A stretch of DNA of 64,000 bases from Ignavibacteriales bacterium (GTDB lineage: Bacteria > Bacteroidota > Ignavibacteria > UBA10030), in the NCBI GenBank assembly GCA_026390575.1, contig JAPLFR010000009.1:1-64000 (forward strand), read 5' to 3'. This document shows, piece after piece, positions 10,670-23,221 of the stretch. Positions within the stretch are counted from its first letter, which is position 1. Each line of letters opens with the position of its first letter. Made by a program: the position numbers and the translations under genes. The notes beneath the pieces were generated by a model. That model was given only the letters and a program-made list of their open reading frames with translations, searched no databases and had not been told where the DNA came from.

Positions 10670-13600
10670 TCATTTCATTAATGACATCTTCCGTACCTGC
10701 ATGAAGGATGTTTTGTCACCATCGATTGGTTGGGCCGAAATACGCAAGAGATACATTCCACTGGCCATATTCGAAGCGTTCCAGATGGTTTGGTAATGCC
10801 CTGCACTCTGCTCGCCGTTGATCAACGTGGCAATTTCCTGACCTAGAATCGAATAAATCTTTACGGTCACAATGCTGCGATGCGGCAGCGCATATTCAAT
10901 TGTTGTAGACGGGTTGAATGGATTCGGATAGTTCTGACTCAAACTGAACTCTGTCGGAATCACAGCATCCATTCTCTCAACCGACATAGGTGCATCGGTG
11001 CCGTCGTACTTAATCGGGTTGGTTCTCCACGGAGTCATATTATTTGTTGCAATAAATTGTAGTTTATTATCTGCTAAAAACTTGACCGTGCCGAGGTACT
11101 TCGGCGTTTGGTACACTGCATCCGCCATAACTGCAGCCCATTCAATGGTTGCCTCACGACGCGCGTGGCCATCGTTGTCATGAATACAGATCGACATACC
11201 GAAAACACTGTCTTTTGCAACAGAGACCTTTTCAGTGGCGCCAATGGCTGACCATTTCATTGCAAGCTCAAATGCGTAACCACCAGGGATGATTGTTCGA
11301 ACCCATTGCTTTGATGTCGAATCTGTAATAATATTCAAACTATCCGCTTGAATTACGCCAGGAGTTGCCTTGCCTAATGCGGTAAAACGGGCCTGCCAAC
11401 ACGAATTTCTGACACTATCTTTTGCTTGAGGATCGAACGTCATTTCCATTTCATCTTCTTCCCATATGTTTGGGGAATTGCCGGAGAGTGTATCATCTTT
11501 CACTTCTGCATACAGATAGAACCATGTTGTATCCCATGCTGTCCAAACCTTCGCTGATAGATCAGCATCGTTCCTCGGCGCACCGTTTGCATTGTAGGCA
11601 CTTGATCTAATCTGGAGGTACCCGTTAGAAGGACCAGTCAAAGTATTATAGAAATCGTCCTTTATTCCATCTACGACAATAATTGGCGGAGGAGGTGTCT
11701 TTGTAATGTCGTTTGTATCGCGCGGACAGATTTCATAGCCATTGTTCGGTGGTGTGCTTGATGAGTATTGACTCACAAAACCGACAACATTAATCGGGTA
11801 GATTGGCTCTGCCATAGTAATGTTCGCGTCAAGATCAAGGAACATTTGCATAGTGTCCGCTTTACTTGCATTCATAACGTATATACTCACATTCGAAGGT
11901 GCGGCAGGCCATGTACCGCTTGCCTTGGAAAGATCATCAAGTTCAATCAACTGTCCTTCATAATTCTCGGCATTCGTTACAAATTGATGAAGCGACAATC
12001 GTTTCGGAGCAGGGACAATGGCATTATGCTTCAGTATTGTGAAATGAGCATCGTCTAGTACGAGTAGAGAAAGCTCAACCAAGCCCTTGTACTGCTTCAC
12101 TATTCCGATGACTCTGACAGAATCACCAATCGCGTAGGTTGTTGCTGATAATCCATAGGCAAATACATCGATACCTCCTGTCGAATCCTGAATAAAATAG
12201 GAAGTCTGGCCGGCAGAGGCTCCCATATTGGGAGTTGTGATGATGCCTACACACACTAACGTATCGCCGGTGGCAACATGATCGGCAATATAGTCGCCAT
12301 TAAGATCTTTTCTTGCTTCGGCGATTGATACAGAAGAGGTACCAATTCCGACTACCTTCACTGTATCTGCAACTTCAGACACATTGCTGAAAAAAACGAA
12401 GGAAGACGGTATTGATCCGTTCACAGTTGGTTTAAAGGTGATGAAAAATTTCTGCGATGCATTAATATCCAACCTCGCCGTTGTCGGTGTAATGGTATAC
12501 GCCGTGTCTGCCGGGTTTGATAGAGCAACATTTGAAATAATAAGAGAATCATAGCCAATATTCGTAACTACTAAACTATCCGTTTTTGATTGTCCAAGAA
12601 CCAAAAGGCCAAGATTCATTGCCGTCGGTGTAACTGAGAAGAGCGGTTCCTTGAGAATACCATTTCCTTCGACGGTTAAAGTATCTTGTTTTGATGGAGC
12701 ATTATGATAGAAAACAATTTTTCCTGTTTCCGCTCCTTTGGCTATTGGATTAAATGTCACTGCGAATTTCGTTGTGGATGAAGTATCAATATCGGCACTG
12801 GTCGGCGTGATGGTGAAAAGAGTATTGTTTGATCTCACCGAGTCGATGACAAGATGCGCAGTCTCACTGGCATTTGCAATGGCAATAGAATCCGTTTTAG
12901 TGGAGTCTTTAAAAATGTTTCCGAAGTTGAGACTCTTAGGCGTCATTGAAAAACCGGCTTGTGTACCCGAACCAGACACCGCTACCGTATTGGGAGAAGT
13001 TGGGTCATTGCTGACGAACACAATATTTGCAGAACTTGGCACTGCACTCGCCGGTGTATATGTCAACGCAAATTTTTGCGAAGCCTTGGGTAAAATTGTA
13101 GCAGCGGTTGGCGTAATAACAAATACAACATCACTCGAAGAAACCGATGTGATATCAAGTGTACCATAAACACTGTTGTTTTGTACGGTGATTGTATCGG
13201 TTGTGCTTACTCCAACATCCTTTTTTCCGAAATCAATACTCGCTGGAGCAATTACAACTTTTGGTTCCAGAACTCCATTCACACTGTTTGCCCAGGACGT
13301 GCCTATACGAATGCCATCAATGAAGAGTCTCGGAGCGCTTGCCACGCCGCCTTGGCGAAGCGTAATATATCCCAAATTTTTCGTGTCACTTTTTGTTTTA
13401 TCCTGATATGCATTGATTTCTGCAGTCGATGGTTCAGTTGTGATGTCGGTACCGGACGGTAAAATCATAACGCTGATGAAATCAGAATCTGCGGCAACAA
13501 ACGTGTACTTAATCACTGCGAGATAAGTCGTATTGAGCGAAAATACTGTTGTGCCATATGTCGCAGTCTCGTTACTTTTGCTTACGCCTACGACAAATCC

Positions 13601-14014
13601 TGCACCGCTTGACTTTATGAACGTCCTTGCGTAATAGTTCGTCTGTGCTAAAGATGAAGATAATGCTACAAAATAGTCACCTGTCGCCGCCTTCGTAACG
13701 TTAAACATGAATGATAGATAAACTGAACCTATGCTGTCGGGTGAAAAATTCTTGTAGTCATCTTGTCCGGTTGTGTCAATCAAGACTGCATCACCAACCC
13801 CGGAACTCACATAACCTGTGAATGTGACATCAGGGGCTGATACAATCTTCAAAGGTAATGTCGTTGTTGCTCCGCTTTGTGTCCACCCCGCACTTGTCAG
13901 GGCAGTTCCGACTGTTCCGGTAAAATCTTCAATCAATACTTGTGCCGATGCGTGTATAGTGAAAACCACAAACGCGCATATCAGCAAAAAGAAAATAGTG
14001 ATAATACGTCTCAT
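10670..14014 (-). CDS. Large secreted multidomain protein with type IX C-terminal sorting domain
   Basis: The 1114-residue protein has a signal peptide (ending IHASAQ). It continues with a jelly-roll-like region (about 25-260) and then four repeated Ig-like 'choice-of-anchor D' domains (about 260-600; repeating VSPTSIDFG-type units such as APASIDFGKKDVG and LNFGNIFKDS). After these come an OB-fold-like domain (about 605-720; GDTLVCVGIITTPN, GDSVRVIGIVKQ), a CBM9-like domain (about 800-990; WDTTWFYLYAEVKDD) and the NYPNPFNPSTTIEY sorting tail. No catalytic motif is seen, so an adhesive or carbohydrate-binding surface role is the best guess. AAGGAG precedes the ATG, and a strong terminator follows the gene. 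Confidence 0.88.
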   Translation of the reverse strand: MRRIITIFFLLICAFVVFTIHASAQVLIEDFTGTVGTALTSAGWTQSGATTTLPLKIVSAPDVTFTGYVSSGVGDAVLIDTTGQDDYKNFSPDSIGSVYLSFMFNVTKAATGDYFVALSSSLAQTNYYARTFIKSSGAGFVVGVSKSNETATYGTTVFSLNTTYLAVIKYTFVAADSDFISVMILPSGTDITTEPSTAEINAYQDKTKSDTKNLGYITLRQGGVASAPRLFIDGIRIGTSWANSVNGVLEPKVVIAPASIDFGKKDVGVSTTDTITVQNNSVYGTLDITSVSSSDVVFVITPTAATILPKASQKFALTYTPASAVPSSANIVFVSNDPTSPNTVAVSGSGTQAGFSMTPKSLNFGNIFKDSTKTDSIAIANASETAHLVIDSVRSNNTLFTITPTSADIDTSSTTKFAVTFNPIAKGAETGKIVFYHNAPSKQDTLTVEGNGILKEPLFSVTPTAMNLGLLVLGQSKTDSLVVTNIGYDSLIISNVALSNPADTAYTITPTTARLDINASQKFFITFKPTVNGSIPSSFVFFSNVSEVADTVKVVGIGTSSVSIAEARKDLNGDYIADHVATGDTLVCVGIITTPNMGASAGQTSYFIQDSTGGIDVFAYGLSATTYAIGDSVRVIGIVKQYKGLVELSLLVLDDAHFTILKHNAIVPAPKRLSLHQFVTNAENYEGQLIELDDLSKASGTWPAAPSNVSIYVMNASKADTMQMFLDLDANITMAEPIYPINVVGFVSQYSSSTPPNNGYEICPRDTNDITKTPPPPIIVVDGIKDDFYNTLTGPSNGYLQIRSSAYNANGAPRNDADLSAKVWTAWDTTWFYLYAEVKDDTLSGNSPNIWEEDEMEMTFDPQAKDSVRNSCWQARFTALGKATPGVIQADSLNIITDSTSKQWVRTIIPGGYAFELAMKWSAIGATEKVSVAKDSVFGMSICIHDNDGHARREATIEWAAVMADAVYQTPKYLGTVKFLADNKLQFIATNNMTPWRTNPIKYDGTDAPMSVERMDAVIPTEFSLSQNYPNPFNPSTTIEYALPHRSIVTVKIYSILGQEIATLINGEQSAGHYQTIWNASNMASGMYLLRISAQPIDGDKTSFMQVRKMSLMK

Positions 14015-14452: not shown

Positions 14453-14872
14453 ATGGATAGAAAAGAATTCTTGACAACAGTAGGAATTGGCGCGGTAGCA
14501 GCAATATGCACTTCTTGCCTCGCTGCTTGTAAGCCTCTCGATAATCCTACAAGCCCACCGACAAATCTCGACTTTACTCTGAATCTGGCGGATCCAGCAA
14601 ATAGTGCTTTGAAAACAAATGGCGGATATATTTATAAAGATAATATCATCGTGGCGCGGATTTCAGATGGATCATATGTGGCGCTCAGTTCCGTTTGCAC
14701 ACATCAAGGAGGCACTGTTGCATACGAGATTGGAGCAAATAGATTCCATTGCCCAAATCATGGCTCCAATTTTGCGACAGACGGTTCTGTCATTAATGGA
14801 CCGGCAGGCAGTCCGTTGGTGACTTATAAAACATCTCTTCTTGATGCAACATCATTAAGAGTATTTTCCTAG
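14453..14872 (+). CDS. Rieske [2Fe-2S] lipoprotein
   Basis: The start at 14453 is fixed by a strong AGGAGG at 14442-14447. The 139-residue protein has a lipoprotein signal ending LAAC (Cys26) and a compact Rieske domain. The cluster ligands are Cys82 and His84 in CTHQGG, and Cys100 and His103 in CPNHGS. The signal resembles twin-arginine Rieske leaders but lacks the RR pair (DRKEF). It would carry electrons on the outer face of a membrane. It opens a cluster with a b561-like protein, a YceI protein and a c-type cytochrome, which suggests a shared electron-transfer function. Confidence 0.92.
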   Translation: MDRKEFLTTVGIGAVAAICTSCLAACKPLDNPTSPPTNLDFTLNLADPANSALKTNGGYIYKDNIIVARISDGSYVALSSVCTHQGGTVAYEIGANRFHCPNHGSNFATDGSVINGPAGSPLVTYKTSLLDATSLRVFS

Positions 14873-14950
14873 GTTCATCCGATGGAGAGAATGATTTTCA
14901 TTAGTAAAGTTGCATCAATAATCTGATTTCATCATTTCATTGGGGAAAAA

Positions 14951-15625
14951 ATGAAACACATCGTCCTTTCTATCGTTGTTGCTTTGTTCAGTATCCAGGT
15001 GTTGCAAGCTCAGGAGTACACATACCTGCCTGACTTGAAAGATCAACTGCTCTATGGTGGTCCATTAGAACTACAAACTGATTCTCTCCCGCAAATACCG
15101 AAGCGCAAACTCTTACCGGATAATATGAGCTTTATGGAAAAGGGATTATGGGGCGAGAATGGGTTTTTTCGCAGCGCTGGCCTGGCTGCACCTTTGACGC
15201 CTGAATCGCGAAAAAGCGAACTCGCACTTCGCCGTACAATGCTTGTTGCTCATCAAATCGGTGGATTTGTAACATTGGGATCGATGATCACAGCAGCGTA
15301 TTTTGGACAGAAGCTCATCGATGGAAATTATGGATATCGCAGAAACCATCAGTATGCTGTCACTGCAACAATTATTTCATATTCCGCAACCGGTTTACTC
15401 GCCGTGCTCTCGCCACCTCCCATGATTCGTCGCAACGAAATGAGCACAACCACAATTCATAAAACATTGGCATGGGTACATTTTGCTGGAATGGTGTTAA
15501 CTCCAATTCTTGGAGCTTCTATCGGTAGAAATGCGACAACTTCCCAGAAAGCCCATTTTCATCAGGTATCTGCCTACATCACAACTGCGGCACTTGCCGC
15601 GTCTCTGATCGTTATTACTTTTTAG
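14951..15625 (+). CDS. Cytochrome b561-like four-helix membrane protein
   Basis: This 224-residue protein has a signal peptide (ending LQAQ), a soluble stretch of about 75 residues and four membrane helices. Each helix begins with or contains a histidine: AHQIGG, NHQYAV, IHKTLAWVHF and AHFHQVSAYI. Paired histidines on neighbouring helices are the heme-ligand pattern of b561/ferric-reductase-like proteins, so transmembrane electron transfer is plausible. The family assignment rests on this pattern alone. It lies between the Rieske and YceI genes on the same strand. Confidence 0.65.
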   Translation: MKHIVLSIVVALFSIQVLQAQEYTYLPDLKDQLLYGGPLELQTDSLPQIPKRKLLPDNMSFMEKGLWGENGFFRSAGLAAPLTPESRKSELALRRTMLVAHQIGGFVTLGSMITAAYFGQKLIDGNYGYRRNHQYAVTATIISYSATGLLAVLSPPPMIRRNEMSTTTIHKTLAWVHFAGMVLTPILGASIGRNATTSQKAHFHQVSAYITTAALAASLIVITF

Positions 15626-15637
15626 CGAGGAACACGT

Positions 15638-16183
15638 ATGTCAAAACTTTCTATGATAATATTTTTATCATTTGGAATTTACATTGGTGCACACGCACAA
15701 CCCAAATGGGCGGAGGTTATCAAAGACGAATCTTCGGTCACGTATCATCTCTCTCATCTACTGCATACCATAGAAGCTGTCAGTAAAGATGTGATATATC
15801 GGATTGAAATCGATGCATTGAAGAAAGAAATAAAATCCGTTTCGGCTCAGGTGGATGTCACCACGTTCGATAGTGGTAATTCAAACCGGGATTCACACGC
15901 CATGGAAGTTATCGATGCTATCACGTATCCAAATGCTACATTCTCTAGTACATCGATTATACAGCGAGGTGACAGCCTTACCGTTGCAGGTCAGCTCACA
16001 TTCCATGGTATTACGAAAGATGTTGTCCTCTTGGGAGTAACAAAATGGTCGCAGAATAAACTCGAAGTACAAGGAGGATTTGCAATAAGCCTCACTGCTT
16101 TTCAAGTCGAACGGCCTTCCTTGTTGATGGTTCCGGTCAAGGACGAATTGCAGTTTGCATTGAAAGCATCATTCGTATTGTAA
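15638..16183 (+). CDS. YceI-family lipocalin-like periplasmic protein
   Basis: The 181-residue protein has a signal peptide (ending IGAHAQ) and matches the YceI beta-barrel. It opens with DESSVTYHLSH, has the central FDSGNSNRDSHAM and YPNATFSS, then LTFHGITKDV, and the closing hydrophobic strand. YceI proteins bind isoprenoids or other lipids and often accompany b-type cytochromes, as here. The start lies 12 bases after the b561-like gene, consistent with an operon. Confidence 0.88.
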   Translation: MSKLSMIIFLSFGIYIGAHAQPKWAEVIKDESSVTYHLSHLLHTIEAVSKDVIYRIEIDALKKEIKSVSAQVDVTTFDSGNSNRDSHAMEVIDAITYPNATFSSTSIIQRGDSLTVAGQLTFHGITKDVVLLGVTKWSQNKLEVQGGFAISLTAFQVERPSLLMVPVKDELQFALKASFVL

Positions 16184-16303
16184 CGGTGTTCATGTAGTTG
16201 TTTGGGTATGTGATTGGGATGGAGAGGAATTTGAAGGCATGGAAATTCATTTTTACAATATCACACTAAATATATTCGGAGTCTATCAACAAAGGAGAAA
16301 TAT

Positions 16304-16954
16304 ATGAAAAATTTACTCACCGGTGTTTTCATGCTTCTGTTAGCAGTGCAATATTCGTTGGGACAAACCATTTCGTACACAAGCGACGTAAAACCGTTGT
16401 TCGATAAGTATGGCTGTACAAACTGTCATGGAGGCAATGGAGGACTCTTTGTTAGTCCCTATGCAAGTCTTTTTACGACAGGAACTCACACACCCGTCGT
16501 TGTAGCCGGTGATACGAATAGTGTGCTTGTAAAGAAGATCAAAGGCATCGCCGGTTTTGGCTCACAAATGCCGTTGGGTGGTCCGGTGATGGCGGCAAGT
16601 GATTTACAAACAATTATTCAGTGGATTAAAGACGGAGCACCCGAAGCTACAACATCAGTGGACGAACTGGCTGACCTCATGTCGGTTCATTCATTTAATT
16701 TAAAACAAAATTATCCCAATCCGTTTAACCCGATAACGACGATTGAATTTACACTCGCGGAAGACAGCAAAGTGTCCTTGAAAATATTTGATGTACTCGG
16801 AAAAGAAGCGGCGACGCTGGTGGATGGAGAACTCAAAGCAGGAGTAGTACATCAAGTCACATTCAATGCATCAAACCTTTCATCCGGCATCTATTTCTAT
16901 CGTTTGGATACGGGTAAAAATTATTTAGTAAAGAAGCTGATGCTGATGAAGTGA
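16304..16954 (+). CDS. c-type cytochrome with type IX sorting tail
   Basis: The 216-residue protein has a signal peptide (ending SLGQ) and a single heme-binding CTNCH (residues 38-42). A candidate axial methionine lies in SQMPLGG, in a fold of about 95 residues typical of PSD-type cytochromes. From about residue 130 it carries a type IX sorting domain (NYPNPFNPITTIEF ... KKLMLMK). That combination predicts a heme protein placed on the cell surface rather than in the periplasm. GGAG precedes the ATG. It ends the Rieske/b561/YceI cluster and may be its terminal electron carrier. Confidence 0.9.
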   Translation: MKNLLTGVFMLLLAVQYSLGQTISYTSDVKPLFDKYGCTNCHGGNGGLFVSPYASLFTTGTHTPVVVAGDTNSVLVKKIKGIAGFGSQMPLGGPVMAASDLQTIIQWIKDGAPEATTSVDELADLMSVHSFNLKQNYPNPFNPITTIEFTLAEDSKVSLKIFDVLGKEAATLVDGELKAGVVHQVTFNASNLSSGIYFYRLDTGKNYLVKKLMLMK

Positions 16955-16976: not shown

Positions 16977-17195
16977 TTATTAATTGGTGTTACGCAACCA
17001 TAAAAAAAAGGATTGTCATTCCCGCGGATTTTAAGTCCGTTTCGATTAGTAAATCGAAACGAGATCTCGACAAAGTCGGACGGGAATCTTACATAAGATG
17101 CCCGACTATCCCGATTGATATAATCAATCGGGACGGGCATGACAATATTACTTTATTAAGTGTCATATCTATTGTGCATAACATCAGTTATTAAT
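16977..17195. repeat. Small inverted-repeat element (MITE-like), copy 2
   Basis: Imperfect terminal inverted repeats (TGGTGTTACGCAA on the left, TTGTGCATAACATCAG on the right) bound about 200 bases. The direct repeat TTATTAAT lies at both edges (16977-16984 and 17188-17195). The ends match copy 1 (143-281) over the ACTGATGTTA core. The interior is again made of hairpins: CATTCCCG...CGGGAATC, then GATGCCCGAC...CGGGCATGAC. No open frame of note is inside. Confidence 0.65.
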
Positions 17196-23133: not shown

Positions 23134-23221
23134 AGCCGGAGGCCTGAGATTGAAACACACGAAGTGTGTTACTATTTCATTCGTGCAAGCGTTCCCGCCC
23201 GACTTTGTCGCGGTCTCGAGT
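23134..23221. repeat. Cassette-boundary repeat modules (likely remnant of the last site)
   Basis: AGCCGGAGGCCTGAGA at 23134-23149 recurs at 21264-21279, inside site 3. In both copies it is followed by a short CACGCGAAGCGTG- or ACACACGAAGTGTGT-type hairpin. The next block (CAAGCGTTCCC...CTTTGTCGCGGTCTCG, about 23188-23221) resembles 22192-22226 inside site 4. These modules mark this stretch as the decayed end of the cassette array. Confidence 0.5.

Follow-up and report, generated by a model that had tools for sequence, protein, structure and literature searches.

The nearest known system to the genes described here is the LcoA-BcnA pair of Burkholderia, a defence against lipid peroxides (PMC9113575). 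In the sections of that paper drawn on here, LcoA (a cytochrome b561) and BcnA (a YceI protein) form an operon in Proteobacteria, the linkage of their genes extends across many genomes, and mutants have more lipid peroxidation. In the authors' suggestion, LcoA may return the BcnA-bound quinone to its reduced state. No word beginning with "Bacteroid" occurs in the main text of the paper. Rules for cytochrome b561 proteins are given in PMC10691727, again as far as the sections drawn on go: histidines H1 and H3 bind the non-cytoplasmic haem and H2 and H4 the cytoplasmic one, CYBDOM-type proteins carry H1-H4 in TM1-TM4, small or polar residues stand at H3-2, H3+14, H3+18 and H4+4, and the function of the Reeler and DOMON domains of eukaryotic cytochrome b561 is unclear.

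The window (the whole 64,000-nucleotide stretch of DNA analysed) lies on contig 9 of a 3.82 Mb genome. An earlier note on this DNA had described a cluster of four redox genes in order on one strand, and all four open reading frames are found there on the plus strand, in the order Rieske, four-helix protein, YceI and cytochrome (Table 1). They are separated by 78, 12 and 120 nt, the last gap preceding the cytochrome gene. The note had read the set as a route for electrons from the membrane to the cell surface. We find that the interest of the locus lies in the first three genes, hereafter the trio, and in their b561-like membrane protein rather than in a four-gene route.

Table 1. Features of the redox gene cluster in the window and the evidence for each.
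Feature	Position	Strand	Evidence
Rieske [2Fe-2S] lipoprotein gene	14453..14872	+	PF00355, 51.7 bits (cut-off 20.3)
Four-helix membrane protein gene, very probably cytochrome b561-like	14951..15625	+	conservation, model, helix depths, PF03188 matches of distant members
YceI-family lipocalin gene	15638..16183	+	PF04264, 71.5 bits (cut-off 23.7); linkage
Gene, adjoining the trio in this lineage only, for a type IX-tailed (C-terminal) monohaem c-type cytochrome domain	16304..16954	+	CTNCH, Por_Secre_tail
CTNCH haem c attachment motif	16415..16429	+	read from sequence
Type IX secretion C-terminal sorting domain	16712..16942	+	PF18962, whole-genome search

A promoter scan of the locus gave fewer sites than scans of shuffled sequence and is thus uninformative on the 120-nt gap. 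A search for a suspected inverted repeat at 17000-17140 found none. Downstream of the cluster, a 20-base element at 17060-17079 recurs at 23199-23218 on the other strand with two mismatches (0.02 chance matches expected) and is possibly a dispersed intergenic repeat. On the other side lies a divergent gene (10670-14014, minus strand) for another type IX-tailed protein, in which Pfam recognises ASH-type Ig repeats and a CBM9 domain.

The Rieske, four-helix and YceI trio is a conserved module

Matches to the four-helix protein were found in 20 of the 98 genomes of the order, a number that includes the genome of the window and a single fragment. Among 18 full-length relatives in this set, the YceI gene follows in 17 and BLAST places a Rieske gene nearby in 10. 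Contigs of named genomes yielded 43 module loci in Ignavibacteria, Fibrobacterota, Flavobacteriia and Chitinophaga, partly from the same genomes as the order set, and a draw of 395 genomes across the phylum contained the four-helix protein in 31. Keeping one row for each identical last 120 residues left 75 distinct relatives, two of them a tandem pair on a single contig, and in 71 of these the YceI gene lies directly downstream (median gap 13 nt). A Rieske gene on the same strand within 1.5 kb accompanies 41 of the 75 loci, lying upstream at 31 and downstream at the other 10, and is thus linked in two arrangements; the other 34 have none nearby, some on short contigs, and the count is 38 of 67 where 1.5 kb is available on both sides. 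Because the linkage is kept across the order, named-contig and phylum sets, the trio is a real conserved module. It is widespread in the Bacteroidota/Ignavibacteria/Fibrobacterota group and apparently undescribed. The open-licence PMC literature held nothing joining Rieske, YceI and b561, nor YceI, Bacteroidetes and b561, and no description of an LcoA-BcnA-type peroxide defence for these bacteria; among papers joining Rieske and YceI, none concerns this module as judged by titles and the starts of abstracts. The portion of the Melioribacter genome paper available mentions a Por sorting domain and does not mention YceI, Rieske or b561.

The redox nature that the earlier note assigned to the Rieske and YceI proteins is borne out, both being over their Pfam cut-offs. 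The Rieske protein has a Tat-like signal (DRKEFL), a cysteine-containing signal region and the cluster motifs CTHQGG and CPNHGS, and lacks the pair of disulphide cysteines found in Rieske proteins of the bc1 type. Its PDB relatives are the Rieske chains of b6f, bc1, arsenite oxidase and dioxygenases. In a survey of 42 Rieske rows, 39 fit the spacing pattern of the motifs and the other 3 have the same residues at shorter spacing; CPHEGN and C(V or I)HHGWTF motifs occur in three of the 42, which may be dioxygenase-type. The YceI protein belongs to the lipocalin family, has a signal peptide and is proposed to be an isoprenoid quinone carrier.

Individual loci vary. On a Candidatus Thermokryptus contig (L109:2563-3717), the pair is followed by a gene for a di-haem cytochrome c peroxidase (CCP_MauG, 222.6 bits) and no Rieske gene was seen, while another locus (L117) has a two-CxxCH lipoprotein-like frame as an alternative third gene. 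Since these alternative third genes also encode redox proteins, we count them for an envelope redox module. The trio also occurs on a Fibrella plasmid, with Dps, catalase and a CusA-type pump close by, and the nearness of Dps and catalase is counted for a role in envelope protection. On a Fibrobacterota contig (L111:5731-7309), two tandem b561-like genes precede one YceI gene.

The four-helix protein and its histidines

An AlphaFold2 model of the four-helix protein, built on 42 sequences (pLDDT 80.6), has four long helices at residues 84-123, 127-153, 166-190 and 197-223. H101, H133, H170 and H204 fall one on each consecutive helix. Measured from the inner turns, H101 and H170 lie at about 33 and 30 Å and H133 and H204 at about 9 and 10.5 Å, depths obtained by helix arithmetic and not from model coordinates. 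We propose H101/H170 as the ligand pair of an outer haem and H133/H204 as that of an inner haem. These depths match the H1/H3 and H2/H4 rule as set out in the sections of PMC10691727 drawn on, and T168, T184, G188 and A208 are residues of the like kind at H3-2, H3+14, H3+18 and H4+4 of that scheme; at H3-2, Lys stands in 26 of the 95 rows of relatives before removal of duplicates. Conservation is high: H101, H170 and H177 are present in all 75 distinct relatives, H204 in 74 and H133 in 64. Ten relatives have Lys and one has Gln in place of H133, and some lineages may therefore lack the inner haem. A paralogue that forms a second copy in one genome (G334; L177:5831-6502) has Gln at the places of both H133 and H204, and neither a YceI nor a Rieske gene was found nearby. 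The paired histidines emphasised in the earlier note are therefore upheld as a haem-b arrangement, by the model, the helix depths and conservation in relatives.

The family of the protein was approached in several ways. The protein of the window itself has no significant match in Pfam, PF03188 and PF01292 included, and none in NCBIfam. All 9 distant members of its family that were scanned reach the PF03188 cut-off (23.0), and a tenth protein in the same scan, from L167, has no match. A PF03188 search of 247 genomes found only five places, all of them inside members of the four-helix family. The match spans the first two helices only, and its register need not hold residue by residue. PF01292 stays below its cut-off in relatives (best 27.9 against 30.1), and a profile-profile comparison (hhalign) of the protein with a Ni_hydr_CYTB alignment of 29 phylum proteins gave no match of weight; the DoxX control gave none either, and Ni_hydr_CYTB did little better than the control.

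Sequence-profile searches of the PDB found no b561 chain: the four-helix family profile A2 retrieved nothing, and profile A3 retrieved only designed dihaem bundles (E 0.004-0.24), which we do not treat as homology, and one further chain (0.66). With the model as query, the best Foldseek match (E 0.96) falls where unrelated helix bundles also score, and the VIA-align Z scores are in the range of common helix bundles, below the level that the tool itself counts as meaningful for helical bundles. Haem bundles, both designed and natural (4D2, STEAP1, cytochrome bd), appear in the VIA-align list together with many bundles that are unrelated, and natural b561 structures are absent from the matches listed by either program. 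On the conserved histidines, the model, the depths and the PF03188 matches of distant members, we conclude that the protein is very probably a dihaem protein resembling cytochrome b561, and that its family is an unnamed one; its membership in PF03188 or PF01292 is not proven.

The tailed cytochrome and its exported counterparts

The fourth gene had been described as a CTNCH cytochrome bearing a type IX sorting tail. The tail and the motif both hold: the tail scores 47.7 bits with PF18962 (cut-off 27) and 42.8 bits with TIGR04183 (cut-off 23), and the genome encodes a PorU sortase (NF033707, 963.7 bits, cut-off 420). The cytochrome domain itself, however, remains under the Pfam cut-off (PF13442 Cytochrome_CBB3, 20.1 bits against 27), and the protein has no match in the PDB. 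Judged from its tail, it is probably exported to the cell surface. The domain family is common, with matches in 84 of the 98 genomes of the order, and GCxxCHGG-type motifs were read in relatives. The relatives at L048-L070 are mostly lipoprotein-like; some are tandem and some have a longer N-terminal part resembling an IPT domain.

The note had suggested a homology search for the same four genes together, and here the result went against a conserved four-gene set. Full-length four-helix proteins occur in 18 relatives of the same order, and none of these has a tailed cytochrome gene next to it. A CxxCH frame near the module in L031, on the opposite strand, was considered as a counterpart and set aside as a 144-residue frame without cytochrome features. 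Among the best matches read, cytochrome orthologues with the same tail occur in six genomes (G070, G088, G091, G094, G095 and G097), and a search of these found the four-helix protein in none. In the five other than G091, the surroundings were also read: none of the orthologues lies by a trio, three adjoin a pyrophosphatase-like gene and four a DUF2520-type-reductase-like gene, names given by eye. Since tailed orthologues lie elsewhere, in genomes that gave no match to the four-helix protein, the pairing of cytochrome and trio in the window is, on this comparison of genomes, a lineage-specific event.

An alternative reading is that the cytochrome is a mere neighbour, a type IX cargo gene inserted in this lineage with no functional tie to the trio, and we regard this as possible without being inclined to expect it. 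Type IX tails are common in the genome (97 matches), and the tailed gene at 10670-14014 flanks the trio on its other side. In G027, the closest relative, E1 dehydrogenase genes resembling those of the window stand directly before the trio with no counterpart of the 10670-14014 gene between them, and the cytochrome gene is missing beside the trio as well. Against this stands the frequency of comparable genes beside the module: at 74 loci, 10 of 146 same-strand genes within two of the module are both tailed and redox-type, versus 0 of 514 other genes, an enrichment that is biased because the tail and DOMON profiles were seeded partly from the counted neighbours and the loci are related, the 10 positives representing about four lineages.

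These tailed redox-type neighbours belong to three further lineages beyond that of the window. Choice-of-anchor V/CxxCH (Reeler-like) proteins with type IX tails stand beside the module in L164, L167 and L168, where the proteins were scanned directly, and in L169, where the genome search found them. DOMON proteins with type IX tails do so in L114, L115, L116, L118 and L122, and all five have Met and His at corresponding places, the kinds of residue said in the consulted part of PMC10691727 to bind haem in DOMON-type domains. An ankyrin-repeat protein is encoded between the DOMON and b561-like genes at L114:5365-5883, with counterparts in L116 and L118 (Flavobacteriia; Pfam-scanned in L114 only). 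Across genomes the association is looser. Of the 31 genomes that encode the four-helix protein, 14 have choice-of-anchor V genes, as do 89 of the 364 that lack it, two draws of 395 being taken as the same sample. The genes adjoin the module in 4 of the 14, and these 4 represent two families. The gene is single-copy and module-adjacent in G435, G109, G129 and G222, lies elsewhere in G447 (single copy) and G173 (both copies), and is absent from G000, G027 and G401. In the 395-genome draw, the 11 genomes with DOMON proteins and the 31 with the four-helix protein have no genome in common, which means that DOMON is usually found where the four-helix protein is not. A functional tie of exported redox partners to the module is therefore lineage-bound and suggestive, and their presence in three further lineages makes recruitment of such a partner plausible.

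The membrane-to-surface idea survives through these neighbours in a weaker form. As first drawn, with electrons passing from the membrane protein to the Rieske and YceI proteins, on to the type IX-exported cytochrome and so outside, it has redox parts, four genes in order on one strand, a solid tail with its sortase, and tailed CxxCH or DOMON proteins adjoining the module in three other lineages. However, the cytochrome is missing from the trio site in all 18 same-order relatives, its six tailed orthologues come from genomes in which a search for the four-helix protein gave no match, the exported protein has one haem, no outer-membrane conduit was seen, and a 120-nt gap precedes the cytochrome gene. 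Nothing among the genes seen at the locus accounts for a passage of electrons over the outer membrane, and we consider a continuous route from membrane to surface quite improbable.

A proposed role for the trio and the known systems compared

Together, the three proteins look like a small set for handling electrons in the cell envelope. From the anatomy of the module and the precedent of LcoA-BcnA, we think it fairly probable that the trio is an envelope redox module for quinone- or Rieske-mediated protection against oxidants, with the tailed cytochrome c as an optional extra. Electrons would come from the quinone pool or from a donor in the cytoplasm and would cross the inner membrane over two b haems, each placed near one of its faces; on the periplasmic side they would reduce a quinone held by YceI, the Rieske lipoprotein or both. 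These in turn may guard the envelope against oxidants, lipid peroxyl radicals among them, a role of the kind proposed for LcoA-BcnA. The type IX-tailed cytochrome would be an addition of this lineage that the module does not need, and at the surface it may exchange electrons with small carriers. We hold it quite improbable that the trio is instead a minimal respiratory quinol-oxidising module of bc1-like logic with no antioxidant role. A haem b pair with a Rieske protein does resemble the quinol-oxidising core and bc1/b6f subunits are among the PDB relatives of the Rieske protein, but the cluster has no cytochrome b or cytochrome c1 partner, many loci keep YceI without Rieske, and YceI is a lipocalin and no known respiratory subunit.

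Of the known systems, LcoA-BcnA, whose E. coli counterpart is YceJ-YceI, comes closest to the trio. As far as the source sections go, both systems have a membrane gene of the four-helix haem-b type followed by a YceI gene, an extracytoplasmic lipocalin and linkage across genomes. They differ in that the membrane protein of the trio is of another family, with no PF01292 match over cut-off, and in that the trio adds a Rieske lipoprotein (41 of 75 loci) and variable type IX-exported redox-type neighbours. The family identified here is unnamed, widespread and b561-like, and is linked with YceI and in many loci with a Rieske lipoprotein.

Two further systems bear on the cytochrome. Like other type IX cargo, it has a tail over both cut-offs and PorU in its genome; distinctive here is that the cargo is a monohaem c-type cytochrome domain. 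Porin-cytochrome systems of extracellular electron transfer differ: the four window genes encode one CxxCH, and no multihaem protein or outer-membrane conduit was found among them and the scanned neighbours. The locus nevertheless gives a concrete reason to ask whether type IX secretion puts surface redox proteins in partnership with an inner-membrane cytochrome.

The last comparison is with the eukaryotic b561/CYBDOM proteins (PF03188), to which the b561-like family of the trio provides a link. In both, four histidines lie in TM1-TM4 at paired depths; distant members of the module family reach the PF03188 cut-off, and some lineages have DOMON or Reeler-like neighbours. The window protein differs in having no Pfam match and in being paired with YceI. 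Where SDR2-type CYBDOM proteins combine Reeler and DOMON domains, here these are separate exported genes, at a minority of loci. An unlikely extension is that the trio is a split-gene bacterial counterpart of the eukaryotic Reeler-DOMON-b561 reductases, repeatedly coupled to type IX-exported haem partners. The b561-like protein would then be the conduit, YceI and the Rieske lipoprotein the periplasmic relays, and the surface partner a cytochrome c here and Reeler-like CxxCH or DOMON proteins elsewhere. If so, the exported partners would act at the cell surface, for example by reducing metals or oxidants outside the cell.
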